A DNA stretch of 42,958 nt, taken from positions 1-42,958 of the forward strand of contig JAKQPD010000206.1 of NCBI GenBank assembly GCA_029564935.1, in the 5' to 3' direction. Shown here in pieces: positions 28,639-30,324 of the stretch. Source of the DNA: Bacteroidota bacterium (GTDB lineage: Bacteria > Bacteroidota > Bacteroidia > Bacteroidales > VadinHA17). A program made the position numbers and the translations under genes. Under the pieces are notes generated by a model that was not told the DNA's origin, searched no databases, and worked only from the letters and a program-made list of their open reading frames with translations. Every line of letters begins with the position of its first letter. Position 1 is the stretch's first letter.

Positions 28639-29457
28639 TGAAATGTACCAATGATTTCGAAAAGATGGAGCGCAAGACATTTTTCAGATTATTTGGAGCA
28701 GGATCTGTCGGAGTTGCGGCTTCATCAGGCATGATTCCCTTTTCATGCAGGAGTGGACCGGATAATTTAATTCCCGGTAGTATAAAAAAGTACCATACTC
28801 CCCATTTTACGAACAGGCAGGGTTGTTGATCCGGAGCGGGGCAACTCATCATACAGTGTCTGGAATTATGAAGAGGCACTAAAAAGATATGAACCAAAAA
28901 CAATTGCCGGGGTCGTTCCGGTTGCTGAGATCTATGAAAGAATTACATATCTGCTGGACCGTTTAATGCCGGTGGCAAAGGAATATAATGTTAAACTGGG
29001 GAATCACATTGCAGATCCTCCATTGCCGGCTGGTTACCGGGGGATAACCAGATGGAACAGTCCGGATGTATTTGAAGGGATAAAAAGATTTGCAGAGCTG
29101 TATGATAGTTCGCATCACGGTTTTCTGCTCTGTATGGGTTCAGTTGCCGAAGGACTTAAAGATCCAAAAAATGAAATACTCCCAATCATAAAATGGGTTG
29201 GAGAAAGGCAGCAGATATTTAGTGTTCATCTGAGAAATATTAAAGGCGGCTGGAACAATTTCATGGAAGTATATCCCGATAACGGGGATATGGATTTCCT
29301 CGAAATAATAAGGGCTCTGAGGGACGTCGGGTATTCAGGGATGGTTTGTCCCGATCATGTCCCCTATCATCCGGATCCGGCAAGCTCACTTCAGGGTTTT
29401 GCCTTTGCTTACGGATATATCAAGGCGCTGATACACTCCGTTGAATCGGAGGAATAA
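28638..29457 (+). pseudogene. Decayed mannonate-dehydratase-like (sugar isomerase TIM-barrel) gene
   Basis: Two pieces in different frames remain. The first (ATG at 28665, or the GTG at 28638) encodes a Tat/lipoprotein-like leader, MERKTFFRLFGAGSVGVAASSG...FSC, and stops at 28829. The second frame is open from 28786 to 29457 and resembles the C-terminal half of mannonate dehydratase UxuA: LMPVAKEYNVKLGNHIADPPLPAGYRGI, GFLLCMGSVAEG, FSVHLRNIKGGWNNFMEVYPDNGDMDFLEIIRAL and MVCPDHVPYHPD. The N-terminal half of the barrel (more than 150 residues) is missing, so an internal deletion with frameshift near 28785-28830 is likely. A separately translated short protein from ATG 28966 (163 residues) is possible but would lack half the active site. 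Confidence 0.75.
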
Positions 29458-29489: not shown

Positions 29490-29514
29490 AGAGACGGTCA
29501 GATTGACCGTCTCT
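29490..29514. repeat. AGAGACGGTCA hairpin (GAGACG/CGTCTC family)
   Basis: Perfect 11-base arms AGAGACGGTCA / TGACCGTCTCT surround the loop GAT, followed by AC. The outer arm GAGACG...CGTCTCTAC is shared with the hairpin at 12980-13008, while the inner arm differs but is still self-complementary. It lies between the pseudogene and the tRNA and could also serve as a terminator. Confidence 0.8.
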
Positions 29515-29526
29515 ACAACATTATTG

Positions 29527-29600
29527 TGATTCCGGGGCGATTCGAACGCCCGACCCACAGCTTAGAAGGCTGTTGCTCTATCCAGCTGAGCTACGGAACC
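29527..29600 (-). tRNA. tRNA-Arg (anticodon TCT)
   Basis: The minus strand folds as a complete 74-base cloverleaf. The acceptor stem is GGTTCCG with CGGAATC, followed by discriminator A at 29527. The D-arm is GCTC...GAGC, the anticodon stem-loop is ACAGC-CTTCTAA-GCTGT (anticodon TCT, reading AGA), and the T-arm is GGGCG-TTCGAAT-CGCCC. The 3' CCA is not encoded. A degenerate copy of the same gene lies 12 bases away at 29613-29686. Confidence 0.95.
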
Positions 29601-29612
29601 AAAACTATTTAA

Positions 29613-29686
29613 CGAACGCCCGACCCATCCCGAGTTCTCGGGATTGCTCTATCCTCCCGATAGCTATCGGGATGAGCTACGGAACC
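29613..29686 (-). pseudogene. Broken tRNA-Arg copy with two hairpin positions replaced by palindromes
   Basis: Read on the minus strand this starts GGTTCCGTAGCTCA, identical to the intact tRNA. The D-loop trinucleotide GCT is then expanded to the perfect palindrome TCCCGATAGCTATCGGGA (29655-29672). GGATAGAGCAA follows, identical again. The anticodon arm is replaced by TCCCGAGAACTCGGGA (29628-29643), and TGGGTCGGGCGTTCG is once more identical. The copy ends in the T-loop, with no 3' acceptor strand. It has no anticodon and cannot be a functional tRNA. Confidence 0.9.
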
Positions 29687-29692
29687 GCGTTC

Positions 29693-30324
29693 CGCGTGCA
29701 AAAATACATTTTTTTTGAATTGATGCAATGATAAAGGAAATCTTACTTTATACGTCCCATTTTTCAGGTAACCGGCTAGCGCTATACGGCCGACTGCGGT
29801 GATCATATAAAGGAAATATCTGAAAAACAGCGATTTATTCACATATTTTATAAATCATCTGTTTTCGCAATCTTCATAATGGATATTTCCATCAAAATAT
29901 AAGCATGATTTGTCAATTTAATCAACCCCTTCGTCATAATGTCAATTTCGGTACTTTGTCAAGTCAATTATTCTTTCTTAATTTGTTCTCAAGCTCATGC
30001 TATTGGTATAAGAGGAGATGAGCAAGGGTTGGGAGTGAAAATCAACAGGATTGTATTGCAGACATTGACTTTCACATCTGGAACCTGAGGAATAGCGCCA
30101 GCTTACCATGGTTCCATCCTTTTATCAGACAGTAGACACGGGAATTATCTCATAAATAAAACCCGCTCCCTGATGTTCACGACCACCCTTCCTCCTCTTA
30201 TTTTTTTTTGGCATCTGTCGAACCGGATAAATCTTCCGGTACCATTGACCTGAACCTGGTACTTAGAAAAATTGCGCTATCTTTAAAATTTTATGTGATG
30301 CTGTATTCCTGTATAAAAGGGTAA
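29693..30324. other. Intergenic region without recognisable gene
   Basis: Six hundred bases follow the tRNA relic without a credible gene. A 77-codon minus-strand frame (29609-29842) runs through the tRNA relic and is a chance frame. TATCTTTA at 30278-30285 matches the -7 consensus TAnnTTTG at all but the last base and may be part of the promoter of the esterase gene at 30325. The rest looks like eroded DNA; I see no transposase remains. Confidence 0.45.

Follow-up and report, generated by a model that had tools for sequence, protein, structure and literature searches.

The tRNA-Arg gene of the window, by which we mean the whole 42,958-nt stretch of DNA analysed here, is preceded by a partial copy of itself in which palindromic sequences stand in place of three D-loop nucleotides and of the anticodon arm. 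We conclude with moderate confidence that this copy is the 5' scar, devoid of an ORF, of a selfish GIY-YIG element that invades tRNA genes. Palindrome-scarred tRNA copies occur in many Bacteroidota, often together with a GIY-YIG gene, and point to an undescribed kind of selfish element. They bring together three puzzles: the palindromes dispersed through Bacteroidota genomes, small GIY-YIG genes that stand as orphans, and fragments of tRNAs next to tRNA genes.

ARAGORN called one tRNA across the whole window, a tRNA-Arg (TCT), and the relic lies 12 nt upstream of it in the reading direction (Table 1). This distance and the three identical blocks of 14, 11 and 15 nt that the preliminary description had reported are exact on alignment: on the minus strand the blocks read GGTTCCGTAGCTCA, GGATAGAGCAA and TGGGTCGGGCGTTCG. 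The relic consists of nt 1-14, the palindrome P, the 11-nt block, the hairpin TCCCGAGAACTCGGGA and the 15-nt block, and ends within the T-loop (GTTCG). Where the intact tRNA has the D-loop triplet GCT (nt 15-17) the relic has TCCCGATAGCTATCGGGA, and CAGCCTTCTAAGCTG of the anticodon arm is replaced by TCCCGAGAACTCGGGA with the outer A-T pair kept. The window holds a single site of the form TCCCGN8CGGGA, where 0.03 would be expected. Upstream of the relic, TATTTTTG matches TAnnTTTG, which we take to be the Bacteroidota -7 box consensus, and a sigma-70 scan of the same region gave no promoter match. Because of this promoter-like box and the terminator-like hairpin after the tRNA, relic and tRNA are probably carried on one transcript. 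P itself does not score as an intrinsic terminator: the hairpin listed in Table 1 is the only terminator-like site between positions 29400 and 29900.

Table 1. Features of the tRNA-Arg locus in the window.
Feature	Position	Strand	Basis
Intact tRNA-Arg (anticodon TCT)	29526..29600	-	ARAGORN; 66.6 bits
Partial 5' copy (relic) of tRNA-Arg(UCU), 74 nt	29613..29686	-	Alignment with intact gene
Spacer between relic and intact tRNA, 12 nt, without ORF	29601..29612	-	
Perfect 18-bp palindrome P, TCCCGATAGCTATCGGGA, in place of D-loop nt 15-17	29655..29672	.	Three-nucleotide rule
Hairpin TCCCGAGAACTCGGGA in place of the anticodon arm, inside the outer A-T pair	29628..29643	-	TYCCG..CGGRA-like hairpins in other relics
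TATTTTTG, candidate -7 box just upstream of the relic	29699..29706	-	Sequence
Intrinsic-terminator-like hairpin with T-run, 3' of the intact tRNA	29490..29514	-	Terminator scan

The same palindrome sits in the D-loop of tRNA copies in many other genomes. A scan of one genome per species with the exact pattern TAGYTCA-P-GG, in which the stretches are chosen by P itself, returned at least 128 such relics in at least 116 stretches (L098-L213). According to their record titles, these stretches belong to Flavobacteriaceae, Cyclobacteriaceae, Bacteroidales, Sphingobacteriales and other Bacteroidota; the further genera named there presumably belong to Bacteroidota as well, and one title, 'Algicola sp.' (L196), the name of a gammaproteobacterial genus in the NCBI taxonomy, is taken as given. 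Since the same relics stand in the records of named strains, such as Gelidibacter salicanalis (L100), Leptobacterium flavescens (L103), Tamlana agarivorans (L212) and Confluentibacter flavum (L099, L184), an assembly artefact appears unlikely. At non-viral loci, 105 P-relics of 15 kinds of tRNA have an intact tRNA gene with an equal 5' half in the next 1.25 kb. Six of the 105 are unalignable at the D-loop; each of the other 99 has lost precisely three nucleotides (nt 15-17) where P stands, and the replaced triplet is GTT in 76, GCT in 15, GTC in four and one of four others in a single relic each. The clean borders of the palindromes in D-loop and anticodon arm, as originally described, are thus exact and in the D-loop follow a three-nucleotide rule; the GCT at the centre of P is a coincidence, given that GTT is replaced about five times as often. 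The suggested exchange of a hairpin for a hairpin, twice in one gene, describes the anticodon arm correctly; in the D-loop, three nucleotides gave way to a hairpin. Hairpins of the form TYCCG..CGGRA stand for the anticodon arm in the window relic, in relics of tRNA-Lys and tRNA-Val, and in others. Elsewhere in the genome of the window, a tRNA-Met relic on contig 37 likewise carries P, its tRNA being cut by the contig end, and in tRNA-Val relics the T-loop GGTTC runs directly into GTTCTTTA, a motif that we take to be boxA-like. P was also seen in 37 stretches of IMG/VR viral contigs (L356-L392); the three-nucleotide rule and the counts of 3' relics and flanking repeats given below refer to the other stretches.

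Relics were also sought without naming the palindrome, in a scan for partial copies that used the own ends of tRNA genes: 30 from the genome of the window, 30 from G025 and 31 from Confluentibacter flavum (G815). It covered the loci for 30 of 31, 30 of 36 and 30 of 39 tRNA matches, with identical genes taken once in the first two genomes; all three genomes are known holders of P, and the thresholds miss decayed relics, such as a further one in L347 (see below). Twelve upstream 5' copies were found beside nine tRNAs, and in 12 of 12 the D-loop or D-arm contains a palindrome: P in ten (two of them nested), a second palindrome, Q, in one, and another hairpin in one. Four downstream 3'-end matches were obtained, one of them, L435, with a hairpin-like insertion at its T-loop. 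The other three (L085, L091 and L353) have altered T-arms with neither P nor Q, which speaks against the element reading; they are short 3' tRNA ends behind tRNA-Pro or tRNA-Ser genes and follow an apparent inverted repeat of the terminator region.

Other palindromes occupy the same positions. A hairpin starting at most 4 nt from the D-stem is present in 22 of 128 distinct relics, against a mean of 5.8 and a maximum of 12 after shuffling, and several of these 22 are not of the TYCCG..CGGRA form. A search for TAGCTCA-(8-34 nt)-GGTTAGAGC gave 10 matches in 9 of 395 genomes of the phylum and 5 in 5 of 393 genomes of the order, the window site being among the matches in both; reversed controls gave, by our count, 12 and 11, as many or more, so that the counts are without weight and only the contexts can be used. 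Six matches in five genomes are true relics, in which the first 14 bases equal those of the following tRNA or of the relic's own tRNA; their inserts are P (the window), P plus one base (G135), TCCGTTAGCTAACGGA twice (G295), and CCTGCC-type hairpins (G129, G623). In G295 these are two full-length tRNA-Val relics with a D-loop palindrome, an anticodon-arm hairpin and a T-loop insert, the stems being otherwise like those of the intact gene. Six other genomes gave matches that were rejected: in G184, G160 and G552 only the bases of the pattern itself match (those of G552 come from the end of a tRNA-Gln), those in G379 and G499 are not beside a tRNA, and that in G052, judged by the matched string, is a short tandem repeat.

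Relics also occur on the downstream side, with 16 distinct 3' relics behind 241 intact tRNAs; by our reading, 13 of the 16 bear either a hairpin for the anticodon arm or a palindrome in one of the two loops D and T; the case is unclear in L140, L167 and one of the two in L261. A common T-loop insert ending in TGCTGACC..GCGTCAGCA, apparently of another family of T-loop palindromes, was observed in relics of L171, L261 and L428, the last of which comes from the sample of GIY-YIG loci treated below.

Genes for GIY-YIG proteins, which lay outside the view of the preliminary description, change the picture. In the 834 kb of P-relic stretches 43 GIY-YIG ORFs were found with a profile built from 19 of the same proteins (E at most 1e-6; a regular expression found fewer), and 41 of the 43 lie within 1.3 kb downstream of a P-relic on the same strand, where an even spread would put 3.2; two P-relics have such an ORF upstream. 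Among the at least 128 P-relics, the ORF stands between the relic and the intact tRNA (Asn, Phe, Met) in 24, just after the intact tRNA in 10, and without an intact tRNA in reach in 6; 70 have an intact tRNA and no ORF, and 18 have neither, 15 of these 18 being at most 500 nt from the end of their stretch. The nuclease gene is thus in or beside 40 of the at least 128 P-relics in relatives, and is absent from the window copy. Four of the proteins match the Pfam model PF01541 (GIY-YIG) with 36-64 bits against a cut-off of 22.6, at E values of 8.7e-14 to 9e-9 for three encoded between relic and tRNA and of 1.3e-17 for one encoded behind the tRNA; three relic-linked proteins tested against NCBIfam gave no model. 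The dN/dS values are 0.10-0.49 in the 20 closest of 76 usable pairs. In Arenibacter the ORF is present in L181 and absent from L199 and L160, which have the same flanks, and on this comparison loss (or gain) of the ORF separates window-like from full relics.

Loci with Q and loci of a mirror-image type are built on the same plan. Q (CCTGCCTGCCGGCAGGCAGG) lies in the D-loop of tRNA-Arg relics, each time just upstream of a GIY-YIG ORF (L302:531-550 and 825-844; L347:1919-1938). L302 (G047) contains the unit of tRNA-Arg 5' half, Q and GIY-YIG gene twice, followed by an intact tRNA-Arg(ACG); in L347 (G025) an array of relics with Q, another hairpin and a GIY-YIG ORF precedes tRNA-Arg(CCT). In the mirror 3' type the order is intact tRNA, terminator, GIY-YIG ORF and 3' relic: the ORF reads into a relic with a TCCCG-hairpin anticodon arm (L107/L408, L398, L410, L431), and its last codons fall within the D-loop of the relic or its hairpin, in L431 threefold. 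The view of L398 holds only the 3' part of the first tRNA, and no intact tRNA was called in L410; L286, of the same type, has a T-loop palindrome in addition.

The association was also approached from the side of the nuclease. A sample of 40 small GIY-YIG loci, drawn from relatives regardless of P and tRNA, comprised the first entries of a listing, with one long ORF, one gene of the window's own genome and the L347 element excluded. A tRNA is present in 13 of these 40 loci, which span 1.2-2.7 kb each and 71 kb together; by our own arithmetic, given genomes of about 4 Mb with 31-39 tRNA matches each, about 0.6 would be expected. The other 27 hold none, which counts against the element reading; most GIY-YIG genes of the group therefore need not be of the tRNA-element type. 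Further GIY-YIG loci with a tRNA close by are L393, L407, L415, L427 and L432. The numbers of P and of GIY-YIG genes are correlated over 60 genomes (rho 0.53), over which both rise with genome size, and among 24 other families (0.51, p 0.01). Against the element reading, there is no correlation within the genus (0.16, n=36), and no GIY-YIG gene was found near the window relic: all five PF01541 matches of its genome lie elsewhere, and in the stretches examined around the three small ones there is no TCCCGA..TCGGGA palindrome. One small GIY-YIG gene of this genome (L215:1128-1349, contig 209) is flanked by ATTGCGAGGAG..GACGAAGCAATCC repeats, some of which hold TCCCGC..GCGGGA hairpins at the same spot.

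The loci thus show a partial and an intact tRNA copy, with palindromes in the loops of the partial one, and a subset of them a nuclease gene between or just after the two; tandem copies and a mirror 3' type also occur. A full element would consist of a GIY-YIG nuclease of about 95 aa between the partial and the intact tRNA copy. The nuclease would cut the tRNA gene in or close to the D-loop (nt 14/15); repair would copy the element in and, by duplicating a portion of the tRNA, preserve one working gene. That the cut falls in the D-loop is suggested by the 5'-type palindrome (nt 15-17) and the 3'-type junctions (L107, L398, L410), which meet there; nuclease cutting as the cause of the relics is what we infer. 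Left without palindromes, the displaced copy, with native flank and tRNA sequence, could still serve as a target, mimic a tRNA, or recombine in such a way that the element is deleted. The palindromes would destroy what the nuclease or the tRNA-processing or recombination machinery recognises, and so end all three roles. Later loss of the ORF would leave relic and tRNA, as in the window. In the 99 alignable relic/intact pairs it is the displaced copy whose nt 15-17 are replaced and the intact tRNA that is kept; this also tells against the element reading, as the target would persist in the intact tRNA if recognition did not reach into the flanks. We nevertheless favour the element on account of the 41 of 43 ORFs downstream of P-relics, the tRNAs at 13 of 40 loci picked without regard to them, the common plan of the Q-bearing and mirror 3' loci, and the palindromes in 12 of 12 upstream copies. 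If it is true, the cell survives the invasion of an essential RNA gene by a nuclease of about 95 aa, loop palindromes tell the displaced from the working copy, and a natural set of nucleases for tRNA genes exists. Much more tentatively, and with considerable doubt, there could be a widespread class of tRNA-gene parasites in Bacteroidota, whose minimal GIY-YIG nuclease cuts loops while partial tRNA duplication spares the host: interchangeable loop palindromes would mark the displaced copy as immune, palindromes standing alone and relics without an ORF would be fossils, and the nuclease might mobilise palindromes genome-wide.

P need not belong to the GIY-YIG element, because it stands alone at many sites outside tRNAs. 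The genome of the window (4.18 Mb, 441 contigs) has 24 copies, against 0 of the reversed control, and 125 sites of the form TCCCGN4-10CGGGA against 9 reversed; part of this latter excess may be terminators with similar arms, which are seen in the group. P is present in 30 of the 60 relatives' genomes searched, with a maximum of 67 copies (G025). Self-nesting, in the form searched, was found at 10 of 171 distinct sites (nine once, one twice), with three bases of the outer copy lost each time; nested-looking sites of another form are present in L043 and L292. Besides tRNA relics, the sites comprise tandem heptamer-type and other intergenic repeats, in which many of them lie, the loops of terminator-like hairpins (L289:212-229 and L294:225-242 in G047), and one hairpin of RNase P RNA: in G023 (L058:1501-1518), P forms the P3 hairpin of an otherwise full-length gene. 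In the 27 genus members whose P3 could be read (of 30 loci, L219-L248), this hairpin ranges from 16 to 36 nt and has many sequences, exactly P in one. Given this variation in length and sequence, the case of G023 is a hairpin position that tolerates P and not proof of a swap. Some P3 hairpins of the genus resemble a CTGAGC..GTCGAAG repeat.

Flanks were examined at 103 distinct P sites, 13 of them of the tRNA type, for joined flanks that fold as an enclosing hairpin (stem of at least 4). They do so at 12 of 90 non-tRNA sites, against 6-23 of 90 in eight offset controls, and at 8 of 13 tRNA-type sites, against 0-6. In the 50 nt on either side of P, inverted repeats of 9 nt or more occur at 10 of 89 sites (controls 3, 3, 2, 3), and within 25 nt at 3 of 89 (controls 1, 0, 0, 3), which is no excess; owing to the small excess within 50 nt, a hairpin link stays open for some sites, and a minority of P sites may be hairpin-related. 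Direct repeats were counted at 14 of 89 sites for at least 8 nt within 25 nt (controls 3, 5, 3, 10) and at 11 of 89 for at least 9 nt within 50 nt (controls 5, 3, 6, 6). A search for partners matched 117 of 171 P sites, against about 36 per shuffle with re-paired flanks; empty partners of non-tRNA sites are few, with gaps of 3, 4, 13 and others, and empty sites of P insertion are clear at tRNA relics only, for which alone the three-nucleotide rule is established. Of the mobile palindrome with a structural target that had been proposed initially, the recurrent and self-nested palindrome is borne out, whereas the folding results do not support a general structural target; recurrence of the precise exchange is borne out at tRNA loops. 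The contrary pattern named at the time, insertion at non-hairpin sites with target duplications, is approached by the many copies in intergenic repeats, but clear target duplications were not seen and the excess of direct repeats is weak.

The occurrence of P at many non-tRNA sites, self-nested, in terminator-like loops and in intergenic repeats, suits a different account, which we regard as rather unlikely: P and similar palindromes would be independent, very small mobile repeats, tRNA fragments left by tandem duplication would be neutral landing sites (insertion into the working tRNA being lethal), and the GIY-YIG genes would be separate passengers. The several different palindromes among the D-loop relics and the lack of a nearby nuclease gene at the relics of the window's genome fit this account as well. 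Neutral landing, however, predicts many palindrome-free relics, where each of the 12 upstream 5' copies has a palindrome, and leaves the link of 41 of 43 GIY-YIG ORFs with P-relics, as well as the tRNAs beside 13 of 40 GIY-YIG genes, unexplained.

Selection could alternatively have kept strong hairpins in the relic as a functional, structured leader of the tRNA transcript, with a role in processing, antitermination or protection. The promoter-like box upstream, the hairpins of differing sequence at the same anticodon position in several species, and an RNA fold of the window relic that is better than that of shuffles (z -2.5) are what such a leader might show, and the boxA-like GTTCTTTA is found in the spacer of 26 of 105 P-relics, before the intact tRNA or before the GIY-YIG ORF. 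We nonetheless consider a leader improbable, as the motif was not found in the other 79 of 105, relics stand at only a minority of tRNAs in each of the three genomes scanned for partial copies, their extent varies from the D-arm to full length, and in the predicted fold P pairs with the hairpin of the anticodon arm, so that no cloverleaf forms. Least probable of all, in our judgement very much so, is template switching or cruciform repair that swapped one hairpin for another, as first suggested for this locus. The diversity of P3 among the 27 genus members, with exactly P in one, a snap-back palindrome built of D-arm sequence in L431, and the inverted repeats within 50 nt of P (10 of 89 against 2-3) are in its favour. 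Yet it does not explain why an identical 18-mer recurs across many genera, the D-loop event turned 3 nt into 18 nt, and cruciform repair predicts hairpin-forming flanks at P sites generally, while non-tRNA flanks fold around the site no more than controls do.

In a search that left most subscription literature outside its range, no published account was found of P, of palindrome-bearing tRNA relics, or of GIY-YIG genes at bacterial tRNA loops, and none of the papers among the matches listed contained a 13-mer of P. The preferred reading, a nuclease element in tRNA genes, can be compared with several known systems. UPF0213 GIY-YIG proteins (PDB 1ywl, 1zg2) resemble the relic-linked proteins in size and by a sequence match (E 0.067 and 0.13) that is too weak for assigning them. 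The SDR elements of cyanobacteria are, reportedly after Elhai in 2008, very small mobile repeats; they are short, structured, dispersed, self-nested, and often situated in tandem heptamer-type repeats. P shares all of these features, including dispersal (the 24 copies in one genome), and by this analogy behaves like such very small mobile repeats. It differs from SDR elements in being a perfect 18-bp palindrome in Bacteroidota, in the strict replacement of three D-loop nucleotides, and in the link with GIY-YIG genes. SDR elements are cited in PMC3116915, in the portion available of that article, which, with the available portion of PMC3733652, describes REP and REPIN sequences with RAYT transposases as short dispersed palindromes with suspected non-autonomous mobility. 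P is similar in these respects, yet lacks the GTAG tag of the REP/RAYT system. Mobilisation of P by RAYT found no support: three Y1_Tnp loci of the window's genome have no TCCCG..CGGGA palindrome in the stretches examined.

The closest likeness lies in mitochondria. In Allomyces, the homing-nuclease ORF360 is said to lie beside a duplicated piece of its host gene, atp6. Homing-endonuclease genes beside a duplicated host-gene piece are described for fungal mitochondrial atp6 and cob in the available part of PMC6279837. As far as that part goes, a GIY-YIG or LAGLIDADG ORF stands next to a partial duplicate and a complete copy of the host gene is kept, as in the loci described here. In contrast, our loci concern bacterial tRNA genes, carry palindromes in the displaced copy, come in 5' and 3' types, and are known from sequence alone. 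In their anatomy they match a nuclease element that invades a host gene, duplicates a part of it and leaves one working copy.
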